IMG/VR virus record: IMGVR_UViG_3300048836_000958 | Location: 1-47,974 of that record | Direction: 5' to 3' (one strand) | Length of the DNA: 47,974 nt | Origin: a virus | Shown here: positions 2,391-47,974 of the stretch, piece after piece | Position numbering within the stretch: position 1 is the first letter of the stretch | How the letters are laid out: each line of letters begins with the position of its first letter | Program-made: the position numbers and the translations under genes | Notes under the pieces: model-generated | The model's database searches: none | Told to the model about the DNA's origin: nothing | What the model saw: only the letters and a program-made list of their open reading frames with translations

Positions 2391-2939
2391 ATGGATAAAC
2401 AGAATACCGCGACTAAAGTTGTTACCGGCGTTGTCCGTCTCTCGTATGCGAACGTATGGGAACCCGCTTCGATCAACGGCGGTACGCCCAAGTACAGCGT
2501 TTCCCTCATCATCCCCAAAGAAGATGAGAAGACACTCGCCGCGATCAATGCGGCGATCGACGCCGCGATCAAGGACGGCGTTTCCAAGTTCGGTGGAAAG
2601 ATCCCGAACCGCGCGGCGCTGAAACTCCCTCTTCGCGACGGCGATACCGAGCGTGATGACGAAGCTTACAAGGGCAGCTATTTCGTCAACGCCAACAGCA
2701 CGACCGCGCCGCAGATCGTTGACCGTACCGTTCAGCCCATCCTCGACCGCGGGGAGGTTTACTCCGGTTGCTACGCGAGGGTGTCGATCAACTTCTACGC
2801 ATTCAATACGAACGGGAATCGCGGCGTTGCCTGCGGTCTTGGAAACATTCAGAAGGTCAAAGAAGGCGATCCGCTTAGCGGCAAGTCCTCGGCGGTGGTT
2901 GATTTCGCTACCGAACCTGACGATGACTTTCTCGGTTAA
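2391..2939 (+). CDS. DUF2815 / Enc34-type single-stranded DNA-binding protein
   Basis: The 182-aa product begins MDKQNTATKVVTGVVRLSY and carries EPASINGGTPKYSVSLIIPK, YSGCYARVSINFYAFN and an acidic tail ending DDDFLG. This is the DUF2815 pattern, a family related to the ssDNA-binding protein of phage Enc34 (OB-fold with acidic C-terminus). It likely coats ssDNA for the adjacent polymerase and helicase. The start is ATG 2391, preceded by GGAGGAATAAGGAA. The upstream gene ends 4 nt before, so the two are probably coupled. Confidence 0.87.
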   Translation: MDKQNTATKVVTGVVRLSYANVWEPASINGGTPKYSVSLIIPKEDEKTLAAINAAIDAAIKDGVSKFGGKIPNRAALKLPLRDGDTERDDEAYKGSYFVNANSTTAPQIVDRTVQPILDRGEVYSGCYARVSINFYAFNTNGNRGVACGLGNIQKVKEGDPLSGKSSAVVDFATEPDDDFLG

Positions 2940-2951
2940 ACCACATCTGCG

Positions 2952-2980
2952 GGGATGGTGGGCAGCACACCTGCCATCCC
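2952..2980 (+). promoter_or_regulatory. Bulged hairpin in the DUF2815-polymerase gap
   Basis: GGGAT 2952-2956 pairs with ATCCC 2976-2980, and GGCAG 2961-2965 with CTGCC 2971-2975, leaving GGTG as a bulge. There is no U-tract, so it is more likely an RNA processing or stability element, or a weak regulator of the polymerase gene, than a terminator. Confidence 0.4.
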
Positions 2981-3022
2981 TGCTCTGAATTAGGGGAGGA
3001 AACCATATGGGAGGGCTTTTTC

Positions 3023-4972: not shown

Positions 4973-5054
4973 CAACGCACTACGGAAAACCGCCCGGCAA
5001 TGTCCATTCAAAAGTGAGGGCGAGTTCGCCCATCAAGCATATGGAGGGAATGAC

Positions 5055-5456
5055 ATGTTTTACATCAAGACCAAGCAGTACAGCGGAAAGACGATCACAA
5101 CCGAGATCACGGACGAAAACGTCTTCACGCGCTGCCCTGAATGCGGGCGCGAGATGCCCATCGACCTTGCGGAGATCTTCGCGGACGGAGAAGGTGATCT
5201 TTTCAGCACACAAATCTTCTGCGCCGCCTGCACCACGGGTATTACGGAGAGCCGATTATCATCGGAGGACTCTAAGATCTCGACCGACGGCATCACGGTT
5301 CTTGCGAAGGTGCTGCGCAAAGCTGGCTACTGGAGGGAGCTATCTGCCCTGTTTGACCTGTTTGAAATCGAGGACATGCGTGACCTCGAGCCGAACCAGA
5401 TTCGTCCATTTTCAGATGCGCTAACCAGCCTTGCGGTCGTTGGAGGGTTGCTATGA
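5055..5456 (+). CDS. Phage protein of unknown function with zinc-ribbon motif
   Basis: The 133-aa product begins MFYIKTKQYSGKTITTEITD. CPEC near residues 29-32 and CAAC near 58-61 form a likely Cys4 zinc ribbon. The C-terminal half is helical (GITVLAKVLRKAGYW). The start ATG 5055 has TGGAGGGA at a good distance. It follows the polymerase gene after 82 nt, and its stop overlaps the next small frame. I do not recognise a named family; a DNA- or protein-binding accessory role is only a guess from the ribbon. Confidence 0.65.
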   Translation: MFYIKTKQYSGKTITTEITDENVFTRCPECGREMPIDLAEIFADGEGDLFSTQIFCAACTTGITESRLSSEDSKISTDGITVLAKVLRKAGYWRELSALFDLFEIEDMRDLEPNQIRPFSDALTSLAVVGGLL

Positions 5457-5548
5457 GCAATAAAAATGCAGAGGGCTTCCCAGCGATGGCGACCTTTACA
5501 TGCATCAGTATATCGCATGGACTGCAGCATGGAAAGCTTGGAGCTTGA
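5453..5548 (+). pseudogene. Small early gene, apparently frameshifted
   Basis: ATG 5453 opens a short frame reading MSNKNAEGFP and then low-complexity residues to TGA at 5548. The opening resembles the N-terminus of the downstream gene at 5705 (NNEGYHDPTA). Shifting by one base after the TTCCC run at 5477-5481 gives a much more protein-like continuation (SDGDLYMHQYIAWTAAWKAW), ending at TGA 5551-5553, which overlaps the ATG of the 5550 gene. One lost C in the run would explain both observations. It could also be sequencing error or a genuinely short peptide. Confidence 0.3.
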
Positions 5549-5549
5549 G

Positions 5550-5708
5550 ATGAAAGAACTGATGCCAAGTTCAGGACTAAGTGAAGAATTTAGTCGGCTC
5601 AATTTTGAGCTGAGCAACTACAAAGATATCGTCAAAACAATGCTGCAACCTCCATTGAATAGTAGAGGTGGGCGTTGCGGCCTATCCAGAAAGGAGGCTC
5701 TTAAATGA
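5550..5708 (+). CDS. Small phage protein of unknown function
   Basis: ATG 5550 gives a 52-aa product starting MKELMPSSGLSEEFSRLNFE and continuing LSNYKDIVKTML, a plausible helical protein. The last third is Arg/Gly-rich and overlaps the AAAGGAGG ribosome site of the next gene. GGAG lies 6-9 nt upstream of the start, and the start overlaps the end of the shifted reading of the 5453 gene as ATGA, suggesting an originally coupled pair. No family is recognised. Confidence 0.4.
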   Translation: MKELMPSSGLSEEFSRLNFELSNYKDIVKTMLQPPLNSRGGRCGLSRKEALK

Positions 5709-6133
5709 GCATAGATAAACGTAATAATGAGGGCTACCATGACCCGACTGCATATGAAGCTTTATCGCTGATTGAAAAAGAAGAAGATTCGCTTCGTGGC
5801 TTTCGGCCGATCGTCTTCATCTGTTCCCCATATGCGGGGGACATTGAGAAAAACGTAAAAGCCGCGCAAGGTTACTGCCGGTTTGCGATGGACATGGGAT
5901 TCATCCCAATCGCGCCGCATCTGCTGTTTCCACAGTTCCTGAACGACACCGACCCCAAAGAGCGTGAGTTGGGACTTTTCTTCGGCACTGTCATCATGAG
6001 CAAATGCGCTGAAGAGTGGGTTTTCGGTGAAAAGGTCTCTGCCGGCATGGCGAAAGAAATCGAAAAAGCCGAGAAGCGCGGCATGCGAATTCGTCGCTTC
6101 AACTCAAAATGTGAGGAGGTGCAAGTGAGATGA
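5705..6133 (+). CDS. DUF4406/DUF7768-type protein, nucleoside deoxyribosyltransferase-like fold
   Basis: The 142-aa product carries PIVFICSPYAGDIEKNVKAA near residues 37-56 and PIAPHLLFPQFLND near 74-87. This is the signature of DUF4406-like phage proteins with a nucleoside 2-deoxyribosyltransferase-like Rossmann fold. The SPYAG loop is where such folds hold nucleotide or phosphate, so a role in nucleotide metabolism is suggested, but catalysis is unproven. The strong site AAAGGAGG precedes ATG 5705. It sits in the early operon between polymerase and antirepressor genes. Confidence 0.8.
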   Translation: MSIDKRNNEGYHDPTAYEALSLIEKEEDSLRGFRPIVFICSPYAGDIEKNVKAAQGYCRFAMDMGFIPIAPHLLFPQFLNDTDPKERELGLFFGTVIMSKCAEEWVFGEKVSAGMAKEIEKAEKRGMRIRRFNSKCEEVQVR

Positions 6134-6231
6134 ATGAACTGATCCCCATCCAATATGAAAAGGGCGTGCATCTGACAGAACCCTTGGGGGTTCAGCTTAC
6201 AAAGACTACAGAAAGGACTGCAGTTGCATGA
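6130..6231 (+). pseudogene. Remnant of an AntA antirepressor 5' end
   Basis: A 33-residue frame begins MNELIPIQYE, almost the same as the start of the full AntA gene at 6884 (MNEMITIQYE), and the DNA is also very similar at that point. After about ten residues homology stops and the frame ends at TGA 6229-6231, overlapping the Rha gene ATG. The best reading is that the Rha gene was inserted or recombined into an older antA locus, leaving this stub. It keeps a good ribosome site (GAGGAGG). Confidence 0.45.
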
Positions 6232-6887
6232 ACAATCAAAAATTGTGGGATAAGGAATACGGATTATCCGACTATGCAGGAATACCTGTTGTCAGTAGTA
6301 GATGGGTGGCAGCGAAATTTGAAAAGGAGCACAAGCACGTTCTGGATTCAATACGAACTCTCTTAAAGCCCGAAAGTGGATTATCGAGACGTTTCACTGA
6401 GCCCAGTTTTCGGCTCAGTGAATACAAGGACTCAACGGGCAGAAAACTGCCTGAATATTTACTGACACGAGACGGTTTCGTAATGCTAGCAATGGGTTTC
6501 ACCGGAAAAAAGGCGTTGCAATTTAAAGAAGCCTATATATGCCGCTTCAATGATATGGAGAAATATATCGCAGTGCTTGATACTGCAAGGCTCGAATTTC
6601 CTGAGTTGACGCAGGCAATTATGGAAGTGCATGACAAGCCGATGCCATTTCACTTCTCAAATGAGATCGACATGATTAATCGGATCGTGCTTGGAATGTC
6701 CGCAAAACAGTATAAGGAAGCACACGGTTTAGGCGCTGTGCCGTCGATCAGGCCGTATCTGACAGCAGAGAAATTGTCGCGTATTGCGCGCCTGCAGAAG
6801 ACGGACATAGGCTTGGTGCTTACAGAACCGGACTATAACAAACGCAAACGGGTTCTCGAATGGTACCACGGGAGGTTAATAAAATGA
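6228..6887 (+). CDS. Rha-family phage regulatory protein
   Basis: The product is 219 aa. Residues about 18-115 match the Rha pattern: VVSSRWVAAKFEKEHKHVLD, then FRLSEYKDSTGRKLPEYLLT, then RDGFVMLAMGFTGKKALQFK. Rha proteins are phage regulators; in phage phi80/P22-type elements they interfere with growth when IHF is absent. The C-terminal 100 residues (with VLGMSAKQYKEAHGL) form an extra domain often seen in Clostridia versions. The start overlaps the upstream stub by ATGA, and the end overlaps the AntA gene by 4 nt, so the set is one operon. Confidence 0.85.
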   Translation: MNNQKLWDKEYGLSDYAGIPVVSSRWVAAKFEKEHKHVLDSIRTLLKPESGLSRRFTEPSFRLSEYKDSTGRKLPEYLLTRDGFVMLAMGFTGKKALQFKEAYICRFNDMEKYIAVLDTARLEFPELTQAIMEVHDKPMPFHFSNEIDMINRIVLGMSAKQYKEAHGLGAVPSIRPYLTAEKLSRIARLQKTDIGLVLTEPDYNKRKRVLEWYHGRLIK

Positions 6888-7519
6888 ATGAAATGATCAC
6901 CATCCAATATGAAAGCGAGAAACCTGCCGTCAGCGGACGGGAGCTTCACGCTTTGCTCGAAATAGAGACGCGTTACAACGATTGGTTTCCTCGGATGTGT
7001 GAATATGGCTTTCACGAAGGGAAAGACTTTTGCCCAATTTTGAGTAAAAGTTCAGGCGGTCGCCCGGGAACCGACCACGCGGTCACCCTTCCGATGGCGA
7101 AGGAACTATGCATGCTCCAACGCACCGCCAAGGGCAAGCAATGCCGCGAGTATTTCATCAGCTGCGAGGAAGCGTGGAACTCGCCCGACAAAATCATGGA
7201 GCGCGCGCTGCAGATCGCGCACCGACGCGCTCTCGAGGCGGAGCGTCGCATCTTCGGTTTGCTGGAGGAAAAGGAAACGCTCGAAATCGCGCTGAATGAG
7301 TCGATCCGGTTTTTCACTGTCGCGAAATACAACGTCGTGTTCAAAAAGAGCTGGACTTTGGCGCAGTGCCAGTCGATTGGCAAACAACTCTCGGCGTATT
7401 GCCGCGCGCGCGCCATACAAATTCGCAAATGCGAAACCGACGATGAGCGCCTCGGAGCGGTGAACAGTTACCCCCTCTCTGCCTGGGAAGATTTCATGGA
7501 GGTGGGATTATATGCGTAA
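6884..7519 (+). CDS. AntA/AntB-type phage antirepressor
   Basis: The 211-aa product has the AntA pattern in residues 10-95: VSGRELHALLEIETRYNDWF, YGFHEGKDF, HAVTLPMAKELCMLQRT and KGKQCREYFISCEE. A long helix (about 105-140) and a C-terminal domain with FKKSWTLAQCQSIGKQLSAY follow; this is not the common KilA-C end. Antirepressors of this class are thought to bind and inactivate lysogeny repressors or to regulate early genes. The start at 6884 is supported by GGGAGG upstream and by the ATGA overlap. Confidence 0.85.
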   Translation: MNEMITIQYESEKPAVSGRELHALLEIETRYNDWFPRMCEYGFHEGKDFCPILSKSSGGRPGTDHAVTLPMAKELCMLQRTAKGKQCREYFISCEEAWNSPDKIMERALQIAHRRALEAERRIFGLLEEKETLEIALNESIRFFTVAKYNVVFKKSWTLAQCQSIGKQLSAYCRARAIQIRKCETDDERLGAVNSYPLSAWEDFMEVGLYA

Positions 7520-9824
7520 TCTACCGATCGCATATGGCAATAGTTGCTTTGCCAAGACATGGCCGAATAAAGCGATCACCTTTGATGAACTCTGCGCCCA
7601 GCTGGAACAGACTATCCGCACGACCGAGTCCGTGGAGGAATATCAGAAGCTGCCCAAGGCGGAGCGCGATCGCATTAAGGACAAGGGCGGGTTCGTAGGC
7701 GGTCAGCTCCGCGATAATCGCCGCAAGCGTGAGAACGTGGCCTGTCGCTCGTTGCTGACGCTCGATTGCGACCATGCTGACGTCGACTTAGTTACCCGTT
7801 TCATCTCCGGCTGCAAGTACGCCGCCTGCCTATACACCACCCATGGCCATACGCCGGAAGCGCCGCGCGTCCGCGTCATCGTGCCTGTGACTCGTGACGT
7901 CACCCCGGATGAGTTCGTCGCCATCTCACGCTACTTCGCCGATGAATGGGGCATCGACCAGTTCGACGAGTGCTCGTATCGCCCGCACCAGCTCATGTAC
8001 TGGCCGACCACGCCGGCAAACGGCGAATACGTGTTCAAGCGCGTCGACGGCGTGTGGCTCGACCCGGACGCCTATCTTGCGGCGCACCCGAACTGGAAAG
8101 ACTGTTCTCTGCTGCCGACCTCGTCCCGCGAGAGCGCCGTTCGTGAGAATAGCAAAAGACCGCAGGAGGATCCGCTCGAAAAGCGCGGAGTCGTCGGCGC
8201 GTTCTGCCGCACATATGGCATCGAAACGGCCATTGCGACTTTTCTCCCTGATGTCTACGAGCCTTCGGTTATGGAAGGCCGCTACGATTACATTGCCGCC
8301 GACAGCAGCGCGGGAGTCGTGATCTATGATGACAAATTCGCATATAGCCATCATGCGACCGATCCCGCCTGCGGGAAGCTGCTCAACGCTTTTGATCTCG
8401 TCCGCATCCATAAATTTGCAGACGATGATGATAAAAAGTCGTTTGCCGCCATGATGGATTTTGCCGTAAAAGATGAGCTTGTCAGCGCAATGCTTTTGCA
8501 TGAAAAGCAGGAATCGGCCGCGGAGGAATTTGAAGACTGGACAAAGGCATTGGTGCGGGATCGAGGTGGCCAGCTGCAGAACAGTCTGCACAATATTACG
8601 CTGATCATGGCCAATGATCCGCTGCTCAAAGCGCTGTGCTTCAATCAGTTGGCAGACGGTATGGAAATCAAAGGCGACATTCCATGGAAGCATCCGGCGC
8701 GGTTCTGGAGGGATGCGGACGATGCGCAGCTGATCTGCTATATCGATGCGAACTACGGCACGTTCTCCGCAAGAAACTATCAGATCGCCGTAGCCAAAGT
8801 TGTCGACGATCGTTCCTACCATCCGATACGGGAGTTTTTCGACGGTCTTCCTCCGTGGGACGGAATAGGCAGAGCCGAAACCATCCTGATCGATTATCTT
8901 GGCGCAGCGGATAACAGTTACACCCGCGCGGTTACCCGAAAGACGTTATGCGCAGCAGTAGCGCGCGTGAAGCATCCCGGCATTAAGTTCGACAATATCC
9001 TCGTGCTCAATGGCGATCAAGGGATCGGCAAATCGACACTCATAGAGAAACTCGGCGGTGAGTGGTACTCGGATAGCCTGTCTCTCACCGACATGAATGA
9101 CAAAACTGCTGCAGAAAAGCTGCAGGGGTATTGGATTCTTGAAATCGGCGAGCTGGCCGGCATGAAAAAAGCGGACATCGACAAGGTCAAGGCGTTCATC
9201 TCCCGTCAGGACGATAAGTACCGAGCCTCTTTCGGTCGCCGGGTGACGCCGCATCCGAGGCAGTGTATCTTTTTCGGCACGACGAACTCGAAGAACGGTT
9301 ATCTCCGTGACATCACCGGCAATCGCCGATTCTGGACGGTCAGAACGCCCGGTAATGGCAGATGCAAGCCGTGGGATCTTAAGAAGGAAGACATAGAGCA
9401 GATCTGGGCAGAAGTGCTGGTTCTCATCGATCAGGGTGAAAAGCTCTACCTTGATAGCAATATGGAACATTTCTCCACAGCGGAGCAGGCATTTGCGATG
9501 GAACAGGATGATCGCGAAGGACTCGTCAGCGATTACTTGAATCTGCTTCTGCCGGAGAACTGGAACGATATGGACACCTTCGCAAGGCAGGAATATGTCC
9601 GGGATCCGGATGGTTCGCTGCAGCCGAAAGGCGTGACGGCGCGTAGTACCGTCAGCAACATCGAGATCTGGTGCGAATGCTTCGGAAAGCGCAAGGAGGA
9701 CATCAAGCCTGCCGATTCCTATGCGCTAGCCGCGATCATGCTTCGCATCGAGGGATGGTATAGGACTGATGATCGCGGTGTTTTACCCCTGTACGGACGT
9801 CAACGCCTATATCGAAGGAGGTGA
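7512..9824 (+). CDS. Primase-polymerase-like / VapE superfamily 3 helicase fusion
   Basis: The product is 770 aa. The N-terminal third has LLTLDCDHADVDL near residues 79-91, a D-x-D motif as in archaeo-eukaryotic primase-polymerases, and HQLMYWPTTP near 160-170. The C-terminal half is a VapE-family helicase with Walker A GDQGIGKST near 500, the Walker B-like ILEIGELAG near 545, and NRRFWTVRT near 607. It would prime and unwind phage DNA for the family A polymerase. Length and domain order fit Clostridia phages. It overlaps antA by 8 nt and is followed by a repeat-rich, origin-like stretch. Confidence 0.9.
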   Translation: MRNLPIAYGNSCFAKTWPNKAITFDELCAQLEQTIRTTESVEEYQKLPKAERDRIKDKGGFVGGQLRDNRRKRENVACRSLLTLDCDHADVDLVTRFISGCKYAACLYTTHGHTPEAPRVRVIVPVTRDVTPDEFVAISRYFADEWGIDQFDECSYRPHQLMYWPTTPANGEYVFKRVDGVWLDPDAYLAAHPNWKDCSLLPTSSRESAVRENSKRPQEDPLEKRGVVGAFCRTYGIETAIATFLPDVYEPSVMEGRYDYIAADSSAGVVIYDDKFAYSHHATDPACGKLLNAFDLVRIHKFADDDDKKSFAAMMDFAVKDELVSAMLLHEKQESAAEEFEDWTKALVRDRGGQLQNSLHNITLIMANDPLLKALCFNQLADGMEIKGDIPWKHPARFWRDADDAQLICYIDANYGTFSARNYQIAVAKVVDDRSYHPIREFFDGLPPWDGIGRAETILIDYLGAADNSYTRAVTRKTLCAAVARVKHPGIKFDNILVLNGDQGIGKSTLIEKLGGEWYSDSLSLTDMNDKTAAEKLQGYWILEIGELAGMKKADIDKVKAFISRQDDKYRASFGRRVTPHPRQCIFFGTTNSKNGYLRDITGNRRFWTVRTPGNGRCKPWDLKKEDIEQIWAEVLVLIDQGEKLYLDSNMEHFSTAEQAFAMEQDDREGLVSDYLNLLLPENWNDMDTFARQEYVRDPDGSLQPKGVTARSTVSNIEIWCECFGKRKEDIKPADSYALAAIMLRIEGWYRTDDRGVLPLYGRQRLYRRR

Positions 9825-27243: not shown

Positions 27244-29247
27244 TTATTGTGTGATGGAGACAATTTCTCCGGTGTCCAGATTATGCCGCACAAGACTCCC
27301 GCCGATGAGATAATAAGCATCTGTGTCGAAGCACCAGACACATGGATGGCTTAGATCTTCGATCGTATTTTCAATGATATTTTTATCCAGATTCCAAACG
27401 AGAATGACATTGTTGCCCCCGTCCTTTGAAGGTTCTACGATAAGCAGGCGGTTGCCACTGATATTAATGGCATCTATTTTTTCATTTGCAGAGAAAACCT
27501 CTTCCTGTTCCGTCCCATCCAGCTTCATGCGGATGACGTCCACGCTGTCTCCGCCATCGATCAGGCAGTAGAGTAGATCATCCTGTATGGCATAGGATAT
27601 TGCGTGATGATTGGTCAGGAGCGGTTGTGATTCGCCTCCCTCAATGGAGATGCGCCATAAACCACCACCCTCGTTGTCCACTAGATAATAGACCCAACCG
27701 CCCCAGGAGTAGACACAGCAAGTATCTTCTTCCAACAACCACTCTGGTTCGCCTCCCCCAGCAGGTGTCTTGAAGATACCTAATGAAGTTCGATAATAAA
27801 GCCATCCATCGGACAACGAGAGATCATAACAGTGGTCGTGAACCAGCTCTATCAAATTCTGACCGTCTATGTCGATCGAATATATGGAACAATTTTTTTC
27901 TTTGTAGCAAAAATAGATGGTATCTTCAAACACGTTGACGGTTGATACACTTCCGTCAAGCAGCCGCGTCAAGTCTTTGCCGCTGTTTCGCGTCGCAGCA
28001 TTCAAACGATTGCCATCATCTAAGTTTCCGAAGTATAGCAAATCTTCTTGCTGGGCTATGATACCTGCAGTGATGTAATCGATTCGCATGAAAAGGTTTG
28101 CTGCGGTGTTGCCGTTTCTGATTACTGTCGGTTGCTGCGGCGATTGATCGGTTGTTACTTCCGATGAATCCGTGGTGATTGTATACTTGGATTGCAGCTC
28201 AATACTTTCGTCAAAGGGCATGTTACACAGAACATCGATAGGAATTCCTAACGCCTCCTGAATGATATTGTCAAAGTATACAAAGGGGGTAAGCAGAACA
28301 TCTTTATCGTCCACATCGCCGAACGCCTCCCGCACAATTGCCTCCATGCTTGCACGTTCACAACCGAAGCTGTTTGCCGCGACATCATAGACATAGGTAT
28401 ACCCTTCCTGCGTGTTTGGATTAAAAATCCACACGACATAAGCGTTATGCGCGGGATAGAAACCGATCGCATTCTTATAGCCGCTCTCCGTCACGGTAAC
28501 CACACGAATGCAGTTCTGCCAATCTGGTTGCGGTGGATTACCCCACTCGACATGATTGATGCGTATGTCATACTTGTCCGTCTCATACAACGCCATTTTA
28601 TCGTTATCGTTGAAGGTAAAGCCAAGTTCGGCAAGGGTGAAGGCCACATCAAAATCGGCTAGTTCCAGGGATGCGCGTATATCCGCAAGCGGCAAGTAGT
28701 TCCTAATCTGGCTGCCCTCAAGGAACAGACAATTCAGGTTGGAGAGTGCTAGAAGCGGCGTAGGGTCTGCGATTGTGGAATGATCCAGAATCAAGACATG
28801 CAGGTTCGTTAAACTGGCAAGCGGAGTATAATCTTCTGCCGCGCAGCCGGTGAGTATCAATGCTTTTAAGTTGGTCAGAGCTGACAGCGGCGCAAGATCG
28901 GTGATTGCGTTGCCAGATAAATCAAGGCTTTCAAGGTTTGCAAAGCTCTCCAATCCGGCGATGCTGCGAATCGGTTCGTTTTCCGATACGTACTTCTGCC
29001 ACTCCGCAAAAGCGAGGTTCAAGCTGGCAACAGTTTTCGCTTCCGCAACTGTAATATCGCCGCTGGGCTTACCCATTGCAGTACGAACCATCGACTCGAG
29101 CGCTGGATCGGAAAAGGCCACAATGCTAGTCATCGCTGTTTCTGCCGGTGTAAGCGTCGGTAATTGTGTTGTCGAAGTCGGTGCGCCACATGCCACTAAT
29201 GTAGTGAGTAGCAGCAGAGCCAACAATGCGGACAGTATCTTCTTCAT
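27244..29247 (-). CDS. Surface lipoprotein with leucine-rich repeats and DUF5050-like beta-propeller
   Basis: The 667-aa product has a signal peptide with lipobox LVAC and lipid-anchored Cys20. Residues about 95-200 are leucine-rich repeats (LESLDLSGNAITDLAPLSAL, LKALILTG, LHVLILDHSTIADPTPLLAL). The C-terminal 280 residues are repeated blades such as DGWLYYRTSLGIFKTPAGGG, LYCLIDGGDSV and GGLWRISIEGGESQPLL, a DUF5050-like propeller. AGAGGA precedes the ATG. Being reversed within the tail operon, it is a moron likely expressed from the lysogen. Surface exclusion, adhesion or sensing are possible; none is shown. Confidence 0.8.
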   Translation of the reverse strand: MKKILSALLALLLLTTLVACGAPTSTTQLPTLTPAETAMTSIVAFSDPALESMVRTAMGKPSGDITVAEAKTVASLNLAFAEWQKYVSENEPIRSIAGLESFANLESLDLSGNAITDLAPLSALTNLKALILTGCAAEDYTPLASLTNLHVLILDHSTIADPTPLLALSNLNCLFLEGSQIRNYLPLADIRASLELADFDVAFTLAELGFTFNDNDKMALYETDKYDIRINHVEWGNPPQPDWQNCIRVVTVTESGYKNAIGFYPAHNAYVVWIFNPNTQEGYTYVYDVAANSFGCERASMEAIVREAFGDVDDKDVLLTPFVYFDNIIQEALGIPIDVLCNMPFDESIELQSKYTITTDSSEVTTDQSPQQPTVIRNGNTAANLFMRIDYITAGIIAQQEDLLYFGNLDDGNRLNAATRNSGKDLTRLLDGSVSTVNVFEDTIYFCYKEKNCSIYSIDIDGQNLIELVHDHCYDLSLSDGWLYYRTSLGIFKTPAGGGEPEWLLEEDTCCVYSWGGWVYYLVDNEGGGLWRISIEGGESQPLLTNHHAISYAIQDDLLYCLIDGGDSVDVIRMKLDGTEQEEVFSANEKIDAINISGNRLLIVEPSKDGGNNVILVWNLDKNIIENTIEDLSHPCVWCFDTDAYYLIGGSLVRHNLDTGEIVSITQ

Positions 29248-39845: not shown

Positions 39846-41162
39846 ATGGAAAGAGCCGTGGAACGGGTGCAATTTTACAAGCACCCACCAACAAAGATGA
39901 AGCGTGTCGCCGCTTATGCCAGAGTATCATCCGGCAAGGATGCTATGCTGCATTCTCTTTCAGCGCAGGTCAGCTATTACAGCGACCTTATTCAAAAGCG
40001 ACGCGGCTGGATCTACCGCGGCGTATATGCGGATGAAGCGATGACCGGCACAAAGGATGACCGCGCGAGCTTTCAGCGGATGCTGGATGAATGCCGGGCT
40101 GGGCACATAGATCTTATACTCACGAAGTCCATATCGCGATTTGCGCGGAACACGGTGTCGATTCTGCAGATCATACGCGAACTTAAGGACATGGGAGTCG
40201 ATGTTTTCTTTGAGGAACAGAACATCCATACAATGAGCGCGGACGGCGAACTCATGCTGACGATTCTTGCATCATACGCGCAGGAGGAAAGCCTTTCGGT
40301 TTCCGAAAACTGCAAATGGTACTGGCGGCAGCGGATGAAGGACGGCCATATGGTCGGCTTGCGGCGTATGTTCGGATATGATATCGTTCGCGGCGTTATT
40401 ACTATTAACCCAGTAGAATCGGCGATCGTAAGAAACATATTCGCTCAGTACGTTTCGGGCGGCTCGACTGTTGGCATTGCTCGAGCGCTGGAAGCAAGTG
40501 GAGTACCAACGGTTTCGGGCGGGAAGTGGAACGACTCACGGGTGCGCGATATTCTGAAGAACGAGAAGTACATTGGCAACGCGCTCCTGCAAAAGAAGTA
40601 TGTCGCCGATCATCTGACAAAGCGGCTGGTTCGCAATCACGGCGAACTCGCGCAGTACTATGTCGAAGGAACGCACGACGCGATTATAGATACCGACACC
40701 TACGAGCTGGCGCAGCGCCGCATAGCTCAAAACACCGAAAAGTGCAACATTAAGAAGCCTACCACCGCGCGGTATCCTTTCTCCGGCAAGATCGTGTGTG
40801 GAAACTGCGGTAAGCATTTTGGTAGAAAGACAACGCATGGTCGAGTTTCATGGATATGCACGGTTTTCCAGTTCGAGGGAAAAAGCGCCTGTCAAGCTAA
40901 ACAGATACCCGAGTCCACGCTGATGGCAGTCTGTTGTGATGTGTTGGGCCTTGCTGAATTTGACGAACGAGTCTTCACCGAAAGGATATCCGGCATACGG
41001 GTCACGGCGCCAAACGAACTCCTCTTCCTCCTCGTTGATGGTCATACGGAGACGAGAGCTTGGAAAGACCGTTCGCGCCGCGAAAGCTGGACGGATGAAA
41101 TGAAAGAAGCGGCACGGCAGCGATTCGCACAGAAACGAAGGGATTTACGCAATGAGCAATAG
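39846..41162 (+). CDS. Large serine recombinase 1
   Basis: The 438-aa product has an N-terminal resolvase domain with catalytic serine in AYARVSSGKD (Ser28) and the conserved arginines in LTKSISRFARNTVSILQIIR. The recombinase domain follows (GIARALEASGVPTVSGGKWN, ILKNEKYIGNALLQKKY), then a zinc ribbon (CGNCGKHFGRK, WICTVF). The C-terminal coiled coil is short compared with recombinase 2, so this copy may depend on its partner. AAAGGAGG precedes ATG 39846. It overlaps recombinase 2 by 11 nt. Confidence 0.92.
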   Translation: MERAVERVQFYKHPPTKMKRVAAYARVSSGKDAMLHSLSAQVSYYSDLIQKRRGWIYRGVYADEAMTGTKDDRASFQRMLDECRAGHIDLILTKSISRFARNTVSILQIIRELKDMGVDVFFEEQNIHTMSADGELMLTILASYAQEESLSVSENCKWYWRQRMKDGHMVGLRRMFGYDIVRGVITINPVESAIVRNIFAQYVSGGSTVGIARALEASGVPTVSGGKWNDSRVRDILKNEKYIGNALLQKKYVADHLTKRLVRNHGELAQYYVEGTHDAIIDTDTYELAQRRIAQNTEKCNIKKPTTARYPFSGKIVCGNCGKHFGRKTTHGRVSWICTVFQFEGKSACQAKQIPESTLMAVCCDVLGLAEFDERVFTERISGIRVTAPNELLFLLVDGHTETRAWKDRSRRESWTDEMKEAARQRFAQKRRDLRNEQ

Positions 41163-42729
41163 GACGGTAACGGTCATTCAACCTACGATTAGCACTTTGG
41201 CGCGGATGCCTTTGGCACAGACGGCAAAGCGGCGCGTGGCGGGCTACGCTCGTGTTTCTACCGATAGCAAGGAACAGATGACCAGCTATAAAACACAGGT
41301 GGACTACTATACGCGCTACATTCAAGAACAGCCTGACTGGAACTTCGTCGGTGTGTATACCGATGAGGGAATCTCGGCGGTCAACACGAAGAAGCGCGAT
41401 GGATTCAATCAGATGGTGCGCGACGCGCTGAACGGCAATGTCGACCTCATTGTCACAAAAAGCGTCAGCCGCTTCGCACGGAATACGGTCGACAGTTTGG
41501 TGACCGTCCGCAAACTCAAAGAAAAGGGCGTCGAGGTTTACTTTGAGAAAGAAAACATTTATACGCTCGACAGTAAAGGCGAATTGCTCATAACGATCAT
41601 GTCTTCGCTGGCGCAGGAAGAAAGCCGCTCCATTTCGGAGAACGTTACTTGGGGTCAGCGGAAACGGTTTGCGGACGGGAAAGTCAGCTTAGCATACAAA
41701 CACTTCCTCGGTTACGAGAAAGGCGAAGATGACATCCCGCAGATCGTCGAAACAGAAGCGATGATCGTACAGCGGATTTACGCGCTTTTCATGGCTGGTA
41801 AAACGCCGGGCGGCATAGCCCGACTGCTGACAGCCGAAGGCATACCGACCCCCGCCGGAAAAGCGCAATGGCGTTCATCCACGGTCGAGAGTATGCTGAC
41901 GAACGAAAAGTACAAGGGCGCCGCACTTTTGCAAAAGAAGTTCACGGTTGACTTTCTGCTGAAAAAGATGAAGCGCAATGAGGGCGAGGTTCCGCAGTAT
42001 TACATAGAAAAAAGCCATGAACCGATTATTGACCCCGTGGAGTTTGAACTGGTGCAGGCCGAGTTCGCCCGGCGCAAGGCTATCGGATACCGTTACAGCG
42101 GGAACAGCATATTGGCATCTCGGATCGTGTGTGGTGACTGCGGCGCCTACTTCGGTTCCAAGGTATGGAACTCCACCAGCAAATACCGCCGAACGATATG
42201 GCAATGCAACGCGAAGTTTCAAAATGACCGACCTTGCTCGACACCCCATTTGGAAGAGGAAGAGATTAAGGCGCGGTTCGTCACCGCTTACAACACACTT
42301 ACGACTGACAAAACGCAGCTTCTCGATGACTGCCGCATCATGCAGACCACCCTTTCGGGCTGCTCGGCTTTTAATGCGGAAATACCCGCTCTGCAGGAAG
42401 AGATGGATGTGGTTGCCGGACTGATACGAAAGTGCATTGAGGAAAACAGCCGCGATACACAGAACCAGTCAGAGTACGGCGTACGCTACAACGGGTACAT
42501 TGAACGATATGAAGCTGCGCAAAACAAGCTGGAAGAGCTGCAGCGCGAACACGCGCTCCGGCAGGCAAAAGCGGATGCTATCGGCGCATTTATGTTTGCC
42601 ATTTCCGAGCAGGACGCCTTGATGGACTTTGATGCGAAATTATGGACAGCCACCATACGCGCGGTCACGGTGCATTCGGACGGACGGATGGTGTTTCACT
42701 TTCTGACAGGCACCGAGATTGAAGTGTAA
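41152..42729 (+). CDS. Large serine recombinase 2
   Basis: The 525-aa product has catalytic Ser36 in GYARVSTDSKEQ and VTKSVSRFARNTVDSLVTVR, a recombinase domain (GIARLLTAEGIPTPAGKAQW, LTNEKYKGAALLQKKF) and a zinc ribbon (CGDCGAYFGSK, WQCNAKF). A long coiled coil (about 390-480) follows, the synapsis-controlling element of large serine integrases. It is the likeliest integrase of the prophage. The right attachment site is expected just downstream. Confidence 0.93.
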   Translation: MSNRTVTVIQPTISTLARMPLAQTAKRRVAGYARVSTDSKEQMTSYKTQVDYYTRYIQEQPDWNFVGVYTDEGISAVNTKKRDGFNQMVRDALNGNVDLIVTKSVSRFARNTVDSLVTVRKLKEKGVEVYFEKENIYTLDSKGELLITIMSSLAQEESRSISENVTWGQRKRFADGKVSLAYKHFLGYEKGEDDIPQIVETEAMIVQRIYALFMAGKTPGGIARLLTAEGIPTPAGKAQWRSSTVESMLTNEKYKGAALLQKKFTVDFLLKKMKRNEGEVPQYYIEKSHEPIIDPVEFELVQAEFARRKAIGYRYSGNSILASRIVCGDCGAYFGSKVWNSTSKYRRTIWQCNAKFQNDRPCSTPHLEEEEIKARFVTAYNTLTTDKTQLLDDCRIMQTTLSGCSAFNAEIPALQEEMDVVAGLIRKCIEENSRDTQNQSEYGVRYNGYIERYEAAQNKLEELQREHALRQAKADAIGAFMFAISEQDALMDFDAKLWTATIRAVTVHSDGRMVFHFLTGTEIEV

Positions 42730-42972: not shown

Positions 42973-43024
42973 TATCGACTTGTCCTTGGACGCTTGAACG
43001 TCGGGCGGAATGCTTCGAGATCTA

Positions 43025-43053
43025 TTGACATTTACAGGTTTGTGCTGTAAATT
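43025..43053 (+). promoter_or_regulatory. Promoter with internal inverted repeat
   Basis: TTGACA 43025-43030 and TAAATT 43048-43053 are 17 bp apart. TTTACAG 43031-43037 and CTGTAAA 43045-43051 are perfect inverted copies lying in the spacer and -10, an operator-like layout that suggests repression. It drives the lipoprotein at 43091 and perhaps the TIR gene. Confidence 0.65.
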
Positions 43054-43090
43054 GTCTTATATAACACATCTTAAAAAGGAGCGCGTACGA

Positions 43091-43693
43091 ATGGAGAAGA
43101 TTCTGTGTACTGTGATAGCCGTTGTATTTGCCCTTTCCTTGGGTGCATGCGGCAGCCCTGCCTCTCCTACGAATGAAGAGGCGGAAAACGTTGTCGCTGC
43201 GTCCGCGCCTACTGCGGAACCAGCGCCCGCGGCAGCGGCGGAAGCGGCTCCAACCGTTGCTCCGACGGCTGCACCGACGGCCGAGCCAACGCCGGAACCG
43301 ATGCAACTAGTCATTGCTCCCCATCCCCAGACCACGTTATGGAGAAGCTACATGATGGATGTCATCAACGCCATCGAGGATGCGGAGCAGATCGAAGCGA
43401 ACCCGGATTACACGCTTACCTCCGAGGATAACAAGCTTGTTGTGGTTCGCGCCCAAGCGATCAATTCGATATGGCTGCCGGATTTTGAAGAGGCGCTGGA
43501 TGAATTTGAACTGCGCACGCCCGACAACAAGGAGTACCCTGCCGCCTATATTCAGGGCCATGGAGAGCCTGTGGAAGTGATTGATTTCGTTTTCGAGATT
43601 CCCTCCAAGTTTCCCGTCGATCAGTGCGTATTTCTGCTTTTCTCTGAGGAATTCGGGGGAAAGGTCATCATACAGCTCTCCGATCTGTTTTGA
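43091..43693 (+). CDS. Small lipoprotein with Pro/Ala/Thr-rich stalk
   Basis: The 200-aa product has a lipoprotein signal with lipobox LGAC and Cys20, a stalk rich in A/P/T/E (about 22-78, with APTAAPTAEPTPEP), and a globular domain of about 120 residues (TTLWRSYMMDVINAIEDAEQ, LVVVRAQAINSIWLPDFEEA, VDQCVFLLFSEEFGGKVIIQ). I do not recognise the globular domain. AAGGAG lies 9 nt before ATG 43091. The TIR receptor gene starts 24 nt after its stop on the same strand, so the two are probably co-transcribed and may act together at the membrane. Confidence 0.8.
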   Translation: MEKILCTVIAVVFALSLGACGSPASPTNEEAENVVAASAPTAEPAPAAAAEAAPTVAPTAAPTAEPTPEPMQLVIAPHPQTTLWRSYMMDVINAIEDAEQIEANPDYTLTSEDNKLVVVRAQAINSIWLPDFEEALDEFELRTPDNKEYPAAYIQGHGEPVEVIDFVFEIPSKFPVDQCVFLLFSEEFGGKVIIQLSDLF

Positions 43694-43717
43694 TGCGGGC
43701 CGGAAGCGTGGCCGAAC

Positions 43718-45193
43718 ATGACTCATGATGTTTTTATAAGCTATTCTCATAAGAATAAGCCAATGGCAGATGCCGTGTGCGCCACCTTGGAGCAAAACGG
43801 TATTCGCTGCTGGTATGCGCCCCGGGATATTGCCGTCGGGCGGGAATGGGCGGAGTGTATCATCGATGCAATCGAAAACTCCCGCATATTCCTTCTGCTC
43901 TTTTCGGATTTCTCAAACGCGTCCGCACAGGTGCTGCGGGAGGTATCCAAAGCGGTGACCGCGCAAAAAATCATCATACCGATGAAGGTCACCAATACCG
44001 TTCCTTCCGGCGGCATGGAATACTATCTAAGCACCGTTCACTGGCTGGACATGCTGAATGCGCCCGCGCAGGAGCAGCTGCGCACCCTGCTGATTCGGGT
44101 GGATTCTGTGCTGGAGAATAATCGCGACGCGGACAGCTATGTGATTCCAAACATTAAGCGATTCTGGAAAAACTCCCGGCTGCCTTACATCATCAGCGCT
44201 GCTGCGCTGCTTGTCACCCTCGCTATGGTATTTCTTATGGCGAGCAGCGGCCTGCTGGCACGCCCGGTTGCGTCCGTTTCTAAGGATGACGCATCGCCTG
44301 CTATCACGGCCTTCACGGTTGTGCCAACGGAAGATGAGCTGGGCACAAGCATCTCCAACGCCAATAATAACGGCCTAGCTGCCGAAGATGGCACGTTTAT
44401 CTATTACCAGTCCAACGACGGCATGAGCCTGTACCGAATGCGCATGGACGGAAGCGAGAAGCAGCAGCTCAGCAATCTTCCGGTCCGCGGCATCAATGTG
44501 TATAACGGCAAGCTATATTTCTCCCTGATCACCAGTGGTATGGGCAAGGTATACAGCATGGATGCGAGCGGCGGAGAACCCGAGTTGCTGATGAGCAGGT
44601 ATGTGGAGAACCTGCTCTACCGGAAAGGCCAGCTCTATTACAATGATGGAGACGACGAATTGAATCTCTACACCATGTCACTGGAAACCGGCTGGACGAC
44701 GCGACTGTGTGCCCGCAAAACCTTCGGCGTGTTTATGGACGACGCCTATATTTACTATATGGATTATGAGGGCGCGGAATATATTTGCCGCTCTGGTTAC
44801 GATGGAAGCAACCCGGAGCCAATCAGCAGATTTCCCGCCAGCCAACCCTCGATGTGCGGCCAGACGCTTGTGTACATGCAGCATTTGCCAACCGGCAATC
44901 AGGAACTGATCGTACAGGACGTAAGCACGCTAGAGACCCTGACTCTGAGTGGGGATGTTACGCTCAACGACATTAACGTTACGCCGGATGGGCTTTACGG
45001 TTGGTACGGCATAGATGACCGCAAATCGATATGCAAGATTACACTGGACGGTACTATGACGGACCTGCTGGAGTTTGAGGGCAGCGTCAGCGACATCAAC
45101 GTTGTCGGCGATTGGATATTCTTTATCAATGAGGCCGATGACTACAGGGTATGGGCGATGCGTACCGACGGGAGCAATCCGGGCCCGGTGTAA
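43718..45193 (+). CDS. TIR-transmembrane-beta-propeller receptor-like protein
   Basis: The product is 491 aa. Residues 3-125 are a TIR domain: HDVFISYSHKNKPMADAVCA, RCWYAPRDIAVGREWAECII and SRIFLLLFSDFSNASAQVLR followed by E, where NADase TIRs have their catalytic glutamate. One transmembrane helix lies near 156-177 (YIISAAALLVTLAMVFLMAS). Residues about 210-491 are DUF5050-like propeller blades (GTFIYYQSNDGMSLYRMRMD, GKLYFSLITSGMGKVYSMDA). The layout implies a cytosolic TIR and an outside propeller sensor. Signalling or defence by NAD+ metabolism is inferred. It is linked to the lipoprotein upstream. Confidence 0.82.
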   Translation: MTHDVFISYSHKNKPMADAVCATLEQNGIRCWYAPRDIAVGREWAECIIDAIENSRIFLLLFSDFSNASAQVLREVSKAVTAQKIIIPMKVTNTVPSGGMEYYLSTVHWLDMLNAPAQEQLRTLLIRVDSVLENNRDADSYVIPNIKRFWKNSRLPYIISAAALLVTLAMVFLMASSGLLARPVASVSKDDASPAITAFTVVPTEDELGTSISNANNNGLAAEDGTFIYYQSNDGMSLYRMRMDGSEKQQLSNLPVRGINVYNGKLYFSLITSGMGKVYSMDASGGEPELLMSRYVENLLYRKGQLYYNDGDDELNLYTMSLETGWTTRLCARKTFGVFMDDAYIYYMDYEGAEYICRSGYDGSNPEPISRFPASQPSMCGQTLVYMQHLPTGNQELIVQDVSTLETLTLSGDVTLNDINVTPDGLYGWYGIDDRKSICKITLDGTMTDLLEFEGSVSDINVVGDWIFFINEADDYRVWAMRTDGSNPGPV

Positions 45194-45397
45194 GCCATAT
45201 AGGCGCGCCAGCAGCAAAGACGGCGATAACGGATCGTTGCGAAACATGAATGTGAACCAAGTGGCGCTGCACGGTTATATTGCCCAACATCAACCAGTGA
45301 TCTGCCCCCGTTTTATGGTCCGGGAGTAATATTAGAAAATCAGTGATTTTAGGCGGCGTTGGGAACCACGGTTTGAGGGGGGGCAGCCTGGATCGAA
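45194..45397. other. Intergenic region between convergent genes
   Basis: AAAATCA 45336-45342 and TGATTTT 45344-45350 flank a single G, a near-perfect palindrome between the TIR gene and the reversed SLOG gene that might help termination on either strand. No gene is supported in this 204-bp stretch. Confidence 0.4.
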
Positions 45398-47044
45398 TCA
45401 AACCTGGAGCGAAGGCGGATTCTCCCGGCTGTAGGAATACCAATTGCCGATCTCGATGATCTCCTCGCGCGCGAGCGCGCTAAAGAGTAGCGCGTGATCG
45501 ATTTGTCCGGATGCATACTGTTCCTTCGCCGAAGCGTACAGGCGGGCCATGCGGTTATGGTCGGTGCTCTTTCTGCCCAGAGAGAGTTTCCCGTAATAGT
45601 TGGCGAGAAACACGGTCATTGCCGAAACCAAGCCAAGCAGGATCTTCATCAGGTTTCGGAGGGTGACCGTCTGCCCGCTGTGATAGAGCATCAGCGGCGG
45701 AAAAGGCTTCATGAACAGCGTTTTTGCCATAGCAGAATCAAACGCGAACTCCAGCGCCAATACGAGGATGAAGAGAGCGAACGTAGCTGCAAGCATCCAA
45801 TTCGCGGTGGACTCGCGGATACGGTGACGGCTGGACGCGCGCTGATATGCGCCTTCATGATAGGCGAGCTGACCTTCGATCCATATTTTTTGAATCGTTT
45901 CGTCGGGCAGCGACTGCCGCGCTGATTCACCGGCAAGCAGCGCGGAAATGGCCTGCTTGATCCAGGTAGATTCCTGCTTCTGTGTCCATGTATATGCGTT
46001 TGCTACGTTGTCGTTCGAACCGGCTGCGCACACAAAAAACTGCGCGCGCAGCGTTTCAGAGAGCATTCGGTAACGAATGTACTTTTCATGCGCCTGCCCC
46101 TTGCTAATCCGCGCGAACGCTAGCACGTAAATCAGAATCAGTAACCCGTAACAGATTAAAAACAGGTTGCTCTCCATCTCGTCATACAGAAGAAAAAACA
46201 GCACCAGCAGCGCGCCGAATATCGAAAAATATCGGATGGCGCACAAGTACTGTGCCTGAAACAAAAGCGACAGGCGATCCGACGCCTGGTATGCCACATG
46301 GAGCTGCTTCATGCCTTCCGGCATGCCGGACAAGATGGTTTCGGGAACGAGCAGCTCTGTTTTCGTGACGGCATCGGCCATCTTTCCTGCATCCGCGTTG
46401 AAGGCGTCGATTGTTACCAGCGTGCTTTTCAGGCTGCCCGGCTCGGTTTCCAGCAGGTGGACTGCCGGATCGAACGATTTGATCTCCGCGCCCTGCTTCG
46501 GCGTATCTATGTGGATCACCGCACCGTCGTTCGCCGCCTTGAAGCAGCCGGCAGCCGTTTCGTCATTTGCGCCGAGCATGAACGCCACGATCTCCGCCGT
46601 TCCGCAGCCGCCCGGTTTGGCGGGCGACCCGTCCCAAAGAGCGAGCAAAAGGTGGCTGTGCCTTGCAACGTATCTGCCGGCCTGCCGGTAATGATCGTCC
46701 CGCGTGAAATTCAGAGACAAACTGCTGTCCGGCGCTGAAAAAACGCGCTCCGCCCGCAGGATCAGCGCATCAAATACCGCCGCTTCCGCGTCTGAAAAAT
46801 CCTTGCGATATTCCTCGGCCGGCATGGGTAGCGGGCAAATCAGCCGCATACCAAGTTCAAGCGCGACCAAAGCGCAGAGCGTATCCGCGCCGGATGCGAT
46901 CGAATTCAGCATGACGAACGAGGAATTCGGGCAGGAAGCGATCAGCTGTTTCAGCTGCGCCGTAACAACCGCGCGCAGCATCGGCAGATCCTGCGTTCGC
47001 AGCGCGCGATGGCCGGTTACGCCGACGACGATTGGGATACCCAC
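45398..47044 (-). CDS. SLOG-type Rossmann domain protein with four membrane segments
   Basis: A GTG start at 47044 follows AAAGGAGT. The 548-aa product opens with IPIVVGVTGHRAL and has VMLNSIASGADTLCALVALE, then LICPLPMPAEEYRKDF: the SLOG (DprA/LOG-like) pattern for binding nucleotide-derived ligands. Four hydrophobic helices follow in two pairs, near 272-291 and 296-315, and near 415-436 and 462-482. Between the pairs is a helical cytosolic part (WIKQAISALLAGESARQS). Published analyses place SLOG-TM and RyR proteins in predicted nucleotide-triggered conflict systems. A ligand-gated effector acting on the membrane is inferred. It is co-transcribed with the RyR gene. Confidence 0.75.
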   Translation of the reverse strand: MGIPIVVGVTGHRALRTQDLPMLRAVVTAQLKQLIASCPNSSFVMLNSIASGADTLCALVALELGMRLICPLPMPAEEYRKDFSDAEAAVFDALILRAERVFSAPDSSLSLNFTRDDHYRQAGRYVARHSHLLLALWDGSPAKPGGCGTAEIVAFMLGANDETAAGCFKAANDGAVIHIDTPKQGAEIKSFDPAVHLLETEPGSLKSTLVTIDAFNADAGKMADAVTKTELLVPETILSGMPEGMKQLHVAYQASDRLSLLFQAQYLCAIRYFSIFGALLVLFFLLYDEMESNLFLICYGLLILIYVLAFARISKGQAHEKYIRYRMLSETLRAQFFVCAAGSNDNVANAYTWTQKQESTWIKQAISALLAGESARQSLPDETIQKIWIEGQLAYHEGAYQRASSRHRIRESTANWMLAATFALFILVLALEFAFDSAMAKTLFMKPFPPLMLYHSGQTVTLRNLMKILLGLVSAMTVFLANYYGKLSLGRKSTDHNRMARLYASAKEQYASGQIDHALLFSALAREEIIEIGNWYSYSRENPPSLQV

Positions 47045-47056
47045 GCGGACTCCTTT

Positions 47057-47974
47057 CTATAACGCATTGTCTGAGGGATATTTGTTCTGTTTAGGAAATC
47101 GCTCGGTGCGATAGATGGTCAGCCCGTCGTATTCCCGAATCAGCTCCAGCATCTGTTCCATCGGATCAGAGTCCTTAAAGCGCTCCTGCGCATCCAGCCG
47201 TTCATAGTCGATCAGGTCATGGTGCAGTCGCGTGTGCTCGCGCATCACGTTGTCGTTCTTTTTGCTGCCGTCGGGCCGCGTGATGGATCCGACGTGCGTG
47301 GTGCCATAGCCCCAACCCATCGCACGCTTTTCTTTGCACCAGCGTTCATGCTCCGCAACGGCGATTTTCACGAGGTCGTTCTCATGCCCGTTTTCTTGTA
47401 TCAGCGCGCGAAAATCGTTCACGGGGAAATAATCCACCGCGCGGTCGGTGTAAAAACAGCCGATCGACTCCAGCTGCTCGGCAAAACCCTTTGCCTGCGC
47501 GATGTTGGAGAGCTTGTACTCAAGCGACAAGTTCTCCTCAAAGGCGACCTTCATCTCCTCCGCGGTGCTGGCGCCCGCGTAGCGTCCGTTGAGTGCGAGC
47601 GCGAAGGAATAGAGGTTGAGATAATTACTGTCGGAAAGATACAGCCCTGTGCGCTTCTGCTTTTTTTCGATGCGCGTTTCCAGAATGGCGCTGGGATCCG
47701 GTACGTTCACATTTGGCTCAAACGCAGGGACGAAGTCCCGCACGCAGATGATCTCGTCGATGTCGTCCACAAACTTGCTGCGGCAATTCCGCACTGCGCC
47801 GGATTTTTTTCGGTAGCCTTCGTAGAGCATATCGGAATATGACTTTGCCGCCAGCACCTTGTTCTCATAACTTTGGTCATAATAGTAAATCCAATGCACG
47901 CTATCCGTTGTAAACTCCAGATCAAAATCAAACGCGTAGATGCCGCTACGGCTATTCTGCCCGTAGGAGGCTCT
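47057..47974 (-). CDS. RyR-domain protein (5' end beyond window)
   Basis: The frame is open from the window edge (47974) to TAG at 47057, giving at least 305 residues. The C-terminal 100 residues are a RyR repeat: LVKIAVAEHERWCKEKRAMG, WGYGTTHVG and LHHDLIDYERLDAQERFKDS. RyR domains in bacteria are thought to bind a small ligand or nucleotide and occur with SLOG, TIR and TrkA-N domains. The preceding part (FDFDLEFTTDSVHWIYYYDQ, IDEIICVRDFVPAF) is of unclear fold. A GTG at 47899 is not the true start, because the frame continues upstream without a stop. The gene ends 12 nt before the SLOG gene. Confidence 0.78.
   Translation of the reverse strand, partial: RASYGQNSRSGIYAFDFDLEFTTDSVHWIYYYDQSYENKVLAAKSYSDMLYEGYRKKSGAVRNCRSKFVDDIDEIICVRDFVPAFEPNVNVPDPSAILETRIEKKQKRTGLYLSDSNYLNLYSFALALNGRYAGASTAEEMKVAFEENLSLEYKLSNIAQAKGFAEQLESIGCFYTDRAVDYFPVNDFRALIQENGHENDLVKIAVAEHERWCKEKRAMGWGYGTTHVGSITRPDGSKKNDNVMREHTRLHHDLIDYERLDAQERFKDSDPMEQMLELIREYDGLTIYRTERFPKQNKYPSDNAL

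Follow-up and report, generated by a model that had tools for sequence, protein, structure and literature searches.

A membrane-bound TIR protein with a predicted extracellular propeller, a lipoprotein of the same operon and candidate signal-domain neighbours beside a clostridial prophage

How a bacterial TIR enzyme might be coupled to events outside the cell is the question raised by a gene pair near the right end of the virus record IMGVR_UViG_3300048836_000958, which we analyzed over its whole length of 47,974 nt (hereafter, the window). The pair consists of a lipoprotein gene followed by a gene for a TIR protein with a membrane helix and a propeller. To our knowledge, the bacterial TIR defences described so far detect infection inside the cytosol or in ways that are unknown. 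If a TIR enzyme were wired to an extracellular sensor, the response could come at phage adsorption, and such a system would serve prokaryotes as a functional counterpart of Toll-like receptors. Our preferred reading, which we hold tentatively and with somewhat less than even confidence, is that the locus encodes a membrane-anchored, surface-sensing TIR signaling system, probably antiviral, in which an ADPR-type signal would pass to a SLATT-type pore and a RyR-domain protein. Features are listed in Table 1.

Table 1. Coordinates of the features discussed. Positions without a locus name refer to the window.
Feature	Position	Strand	Basis
Conserved cassette (promoter, lipoprotein gene, TIR receptor gene)	43000..45207	+	Sharp homology limits against sister genome
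Promoter TTGACA-17-TAAATT	43025..43053	+	Consensus scan; hexamers and spacing kept in sister
Inverted repeat TTTACAG-N7-CTGTAAA between promoter hexamers	43031..43051	+	Read from sequence; broken in sister
Lipoprotein gene	43091..43693	+	Signal, LGAC lipobox, stalk, globular domain 73-200; sister orthologue 72%
TIR-TM-DUF5050 propeller protein, 491 aa	43718..45193	+	Pfam, AlphaFold model; sister orthologue 86%
Cytosolic TIR domain (predicted location)	43730..44092	+	TIR_2; catalytic-type Glu75 codon 43940-43942
Single transmembrane helix, residues 158-176	44189..44245	+	Hydropathy; 155-176 helix in model
DUF5050 beta-propeller (predicted extracellular)	44351..45160	+	PF16472; 3s25 match
SLOG-like N-terminus plus four-TM SLATT-like protein, candidate effector	45398..47044	-	Weak DUF4231; two relatives beside TIR-propeller genes
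RyR-domain protein, candidate signal reader or degrader	47057..47974	-	5' end cut by record end; PF02026; sister orthologue 77%
Sister full-length RyR orthologue	L099 7713-9740	-	77% identical, 676 aa, RyR at C-terminus
Three-gene RyR-RyR-TIR operons	L100 2152-7375; L101 1-5436; L146 3125-6611		

The initial annotation had described the TIR protein as a cytosolic TIR domain with the expected glutamate, one membrane helix and an extracellular propeller, and sequence and model agreed with this description. TIR_2 (PF13676) matched residues 5-125 with 79.8 bits (cut-off 28) and DUF5050 (PF16472) residues 212-481 with 114 bits (cut-off 27) in Pfam, and Glu75, in the helix C region, was invariant across 16 aligned related TIR domains. 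Positive residues (KRFWKNSR) lie just before the helix, and by the positive-inside rule the TIR domain is therefore expected inside and the propeller outside. An AlphaFold model built on a 28-row alignment (mean pLDDT 74.5, pTM 0.40) contained a confident TIR domain (pLDDT above 90), the helix and a propeller of moderate confidence. The predicted topology puts TIR and propeller on opposite sides of the membrane. The propeller resembles the DUF5050 protein of PDB entry 3s25, which has a seven-blade fold, both in structure (Foldseek E 6.8e-14; VIA Z 24.5, rmsd 3.6, 277 aligned) and in sequence; 3s25 is without a reported TIR domain, however, whereas the propeller of the window is fused to a TIR-TM part.

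Both open reading frames of the pair were present as first described, in the same direction and 24 nt apart. The lipoprotein has 200 aa and starts at an ATG at 43091 behind the ribosome site AGGAG; residues 4-22 are hydrophobic, Cys20 completes a lipobox that is also present in the sister genome (see below), and a stalk rich in Ala, Pro and Thr (approximately residues 29-72) leads to the globular part. Pfam gave no match to this protein. A comparison with DUF4352 (PF11611) reached an hhalign E of 0.059, with one of 20 shuffles scoring equally high, and the structural model was a low-confidence beta-sandwich, for which 5bxg was matched with Z 7.4, rmsd 4.0 and 109 aligned residues. Because the best fold matches of this low-confidence model were tied (Z from about 7 to 7.6, Ig-like domains for the most part), we claim no family for the lipoprotein. 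When a profile of the globular domain was searched against 391 Clostridia genomes, the sister protein was the sole credible relative, and all remaining matches had E >0.003. We also considered whether a lipoprotein beside a TIR gene is a general rule and rejected it: the lipoproteins encoded upstream of TIR genes in two other genomes (G226 and G151) are unrelated in sequence, and genes for lipoproteins are so frequent that such neighborhoods carry no weight.

The sister genome, Clostridiaceae MAG AS22ysBPME_250 (G001), carries both genes in the same order and with the same 24-nt gap. Its TIR protein could be compared over the 269 residues that precede a contig break, the 3' end of the gene being on a separate contig. 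Nei-Gojobori dN/dS between window and sister was 0.48 for the lipoprotein (0.40 in the globular part, 0.77 in the stalk) and 0.15 for residues 1-269 of the TIR protein. Since the same pair with the same spacing occurs in an independent genome with these dN/dS values, its conservation is more than chance, and on sequence grounds we consider lipoprotein and TIR gene a real two-gene operon with purifying selection on both. The search of Clostridia genomes that had been suggested for such pairs thus found one, but in the sister alone among 391; given that the lipoprotein had no other credible relative there, conservation of the pair is real but narrow. The idea that the lipoprotein is the partner of a TIR receptor fares accordingly: the co-directional pair is conserved, but the one other genome that has it belongs to the same lineage, so that it is operon structure by itself that argues for the role. 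IMG/VR scans with the TIR protein and with the lipoprotein returned no relatives, and a scan with a TIR-domain alignment (A6) returned five weak TIR matches. A plasmid search gave no match, a phage search gave one (MT836910, covering 40% of the query), and no tRNA, tmRNA or Rfam elements were found in the window.

Alignment with the sister loci (L004, L010 and L011) also delimited the conserved segment. The only blastn matches were 43000-44523 and 44933-45207, and the flanks differ: in the sister they are MurT/GatD-like genes and tmRNA/smpB, identified from sequence and with ARAGORN, and in the window a prophage that carries two serine recombinases, and the SLOG-SLATT-like gene. As homology ends on both sides and the flanks are different, the segment seems to be a movable cassette of about 2.2 kb that lies beside the prophage and outside it, even though the full window is a record of IMG/VR. 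Carriage as prophage cargo was considered and rejected, since the homologous cassette of the sister MAG lies in the chromosome and the similarity begins at 43000, past the second recombinase. The two large recombinase genes stand in tandem at 39846-42729 (+) with an 11-nt overlap, at the right end of the prophage. Within the cassette, the promoter from which the operon had been proposed to start was found and is kept in the sister as TTGACA-17-TAGATT, but the operator-like repeat (arms TTTACAG at 43031-43037 and CTGTAAA at 43045-43051) is broken there; the label of operator is therefore unsupported, and comparison of the two sequences suggests that the repeat is probably not a conserved operator.

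The receptor-like architecture proposed at the outset holds, none of the three outcomes set against it beforehand having been observed, but the first reading had missed that it belongs to a wider set of proteins. Searching the 391 Clostridia genomes with the TIR protein yielded relatives with the same TIR domain (36-53% identity) and a single main TM helix at about residues 158-200, followed by varying ectodomains: DUF6273 in six loci, LRR in three (L044, L046, L048) and, in a more distant relative, a trypsin-like domain. The full-length TIR-TM-DUF5050 arrangement was found in the window and its sister only. In a tree each ectodomain type clustered together with moderate support, so that ectodomain change looks infrequent rather than rampant. 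These results suggest that the pair is part of a broader family of TIR receptors, so far little described, that are located beside genes predicted to read NAD-derived signals; the literature, as far as our partial coverage of it extends, yielded no description of TIR-TM-ectodomain receptors or of bacterial RyR-TIR operons.

Two genes that the initial annotation did not consider, convergent with the pair and downstream of it, are probably more telling partners than the lipoprotein. The nearer one combines a SLOG-like N-terminus, judged by eye from the motifs GVTGHR and GCGTAEIV, with a SLATT-like part of four TM helices, for which DUF4231 scored 17.8 bits, under the Pfam cut-off of 24.7. Only two relatives of it turned up in 381 genomes, each of them full length and 37-38% identical, and in both cases the adjoining upstream gene on the same strand encodes a TIR protein with a borderline TM helix and WD40 propellers. 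These two-gene units are at L144 4199-8335 and L145 6416-10514. An IMG/VR scan with the SLOG-SLATT-like protein found no relatives. A 556-aa four-TM protein at L149 was not accepted as a further relative (hhalign E 0.053); its locus (2912-8174) contains a divergent TIR-TM-propeller gene (1062 aa), a small RyR gene and the gene for this protein, whose TM spacing is SLATT-like.

The second neighbor encodes a RyR domain (PF02026), which in the window scored 26.2 bits (E 9.8e-6) against a cut-off of 27.4; the sister orthologue passes with its neighboring stretches, and matches of the window domain to RyR3 and RyR2 structures in PDB were weak. In the N-terminal half of the sister protein an HD-hydrolase-like H...HD pattern was seen by eye, of which Pfam gave no confirmation. 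Across the 391 genomes, 8 of 31 RyR loci have a TIR gene within 1 kb, where 0.02 would be expected if the 231 TIR matches were placed at random, a null that ignores kinship, and defence islands beyond 50-fold; with local TIR density 50 times higher, P was still 3e-6. At the genome level, TIR_2 occurred in 22 of the 27 genomes with RyR, against 121 of all 391 (Fisher test without kinship correction, P 3e-8). In three genomes (G158, G226, G312) the gene for a TM protein that has RyR at its C-terminus is followed by one for an RyR protein of about 100 aa and then by a TIR gene; the TIR protein is of the TIR-TM-LRR type in the first two (L100, L101), operons of this type including ones that start with a four-TM region joined to RyR, and the RyR match of the TM protein is weak in G312. 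Elsewhere, a 575-aa RyR protein precedes a TIR-LRR protein (G366, G297), a small RyR gene lies directly ahead of a TIR gene (G362, G274) or a small RyR gene adjoins a divergent TIR-TM-propeller gene (G232). Two further arrangements were seen: at L101 a lipoprotein gene lies upstream of the operon, and at L147 1780-7979 a small RyR gene and a TIR gene come after a gene whose 1359-aa product has a protein-kinase domain and matches Card1-like proteins weakly.

The linkage between RyR and TIR may be read in the light of a 2026 preprint in which phage RyR-domain proteins bind or hydrolyse 2'/3'cADPR via His75 and Trp78 (PMC13232231). The His and Trp of the corresponding HxxW motif were invariant in 13 aligned RyR domains, that of the window included; the likeness to the phage protein RyDEP is a motif match of the same spacing, the RyDEP sequence itself lying outside the alignment. 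ThsA effectors read TIR products through SLOG or TM-macro domains (PMC11204291), and SLATT proteins have been predicted to be ADPr-regulated membrane effectors (PMC9503650). It is from these precedents and the motif match that we derive the proposal of a TIR signal acting on a pore and a RyR protein. While protein anatomy and gene linkage were observed, we infer each functional step as follows. The lipoprotein, anchored outside by lipid and stalk, and the propeller would detect or relay an envelope cue such as phage adsorption; the cue would cluster the cytosolic TIR domains, which may use Glu75 to convert NAD+ to ADP-ribose or cyclic ADP-ribose; the SLOG part of the convergent gene product could bind this signal and its four-helix SLATT part open the membrane, so that the infected cell stops; and the RyR protein might bind or degrade the signal, setting a threshold or ending it.

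Beyond domain order, the invariant Glu75 and the pair conserved with its gap and promoter, the proposed signaling system is favored by the recurrence of the TIR-TM layout with other ectodomains in Clostridia and by the TIR linkage of both neighbors elsewhere. However, the sister pair occurs without a SLOG-SLATT gene and its RyR orthologue is on a different contig from the pair, both neighbors are on the strand opposite to it, the SLATT assignment is under the Pfam cut-off, the lipoprotein has no relatives outside the lineage, and the chance estimate for RyR-TIR linkage allows for defence-island clustering only up to 50-fold. Conservation of the pair in the sister without a SLOG-SLATT gene, together with cassette limits that leave out both neighbors, would fit a pair that is self-sufficient. 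Its TIR domain would deplete NAD+ directly once the ectodomain senses an envelope cue, and the SLOG-SLATT-like and RyR genes would merely share the island with it, having no connection to its function. We regard this as the less probable explanation, though a serious one; relatives of both neighbors adjoin TIR genes elsewhere far above chance, and the sister has retained the RyR orthologue.

Alternatively, the protein may be a receptor for envelope stress or environmental conditions in ordinary physiology, with no part in defence, and its TIR domain a signaling enzyme or protein-interaction adaptor. The chromosomal setting in the sister, near MurT/GatD and tmRNA, is consistent with this, as are PADLOC matches that were weak and at TIR level only. 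In some Clostridia (L041, L043, L047) the neighborhood of TIR-TM-DUF6273 genes includes MCP chemoreceptor, thioesterase and large lipoprotein genes; proximity to the former two would suit such a receptor, and may be ordinary synteny. We nevertheless think a purely physiological role unlikely in view of the invariant catalytic glutamate, the linkage to ADPR-signal domains and the cassette-like mobility. Less probable still, and distinctly so, is that the lipoprotein acts as a silencer that holds the propeller off until it is lost, or displaced by phage or stress, and the TIR domain is freed, in the manner of a guard or antitoxin. Its gene is the first of the operon, 24 nt upstream, and the lipoprotein is thus made first, and its globular part is constrained, features that would suit an on-partner as well as an off-partner.

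If surface-sensing TIR signaling is the correct reading, the system would work like an inside-out Toll-like receptor coupled to Thoeris-like chemistry. As in Thoeris, next to the TIR enzyme there is an effector that is predicted to read nucleotides and has SLOG-like or membrane parts, and an ADPR-type signal is expected. Unlike in Thoeris, where the TIR protein is ThsB and ThsA is of SIR2-SLOG or TM-macro type, the TIR of the window is membrane-bound with a predicted extracellular propeller, the candidate effector is SLOG-SLATT, and lipoprotein and RyR genes are additional; SIR2 and macro domains were absent from the neighboring genes (Pfam and PADLOC, up to the record end at 47974). With animal Toll-like receptors it shares a single membrane pass, a TIR domain predicted in the cytosol and, outside, a sensor of the repeat or propeller kind, which is LRR in the three relatives named above. 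However, those receptors run from an N-terminal LRR ectodomain through the membrane to a C-terminal TIR, whereas here the order is TIR-TM-propeller, the N-terminal TIR is of the bacterial enzyme type with the conserved Glu, and a propeller replaces the LRR. The RyR domain and HxxW ligand motif recall RyDEP, but RyDEP is a phage anti-defence protein, whereas these RyR domains are encoded beside bacterial TIR genes and some are joined to a four-TM region. Firmicute phages likewise pair a TIR gene with one for a SLATT membrane protein whose regulation by ADPr has been predicted (PMC9503650), although there the SLATT protein has two TM helices, while the partner in the window has a SLOG part and four, and its TIR is a receptor-type membrane protein.

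With RyR and TIR genes recurring together, the reading or clearing of cyclic ADP-ribose can be proposed as a testable function of bacterial RyR domains, a point of relevance to the still unsettled relation between cADPR and the ryanodine receptor in animals. A bolder version, which we consider doubtful, would make the Clostridia proteins a family of inside-out Toll-like receptors with propeller, LRR, DUF6273 and protease sensors, whose cyclic ADP-ribose would be read by channel-like RyR-domain proteins and SLOG-SLATT pores, a TIR-cADPR-RyR ion-flux immunity paralleling animal TIR and ryanodine-receptor signaling.

The prophage itself contains a gene (27244-29247, minus strand) opposite in direction to those around it. 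Its product, which had no relative in IMG/VR, is a predicted lipoprotein of 667 aa that combines LRRs with a DUF5050 propeller, both of which also serve as ectodomains in host TIR-TM receptors, and it is possibly a lysogenic-conversion gene or a decoy.
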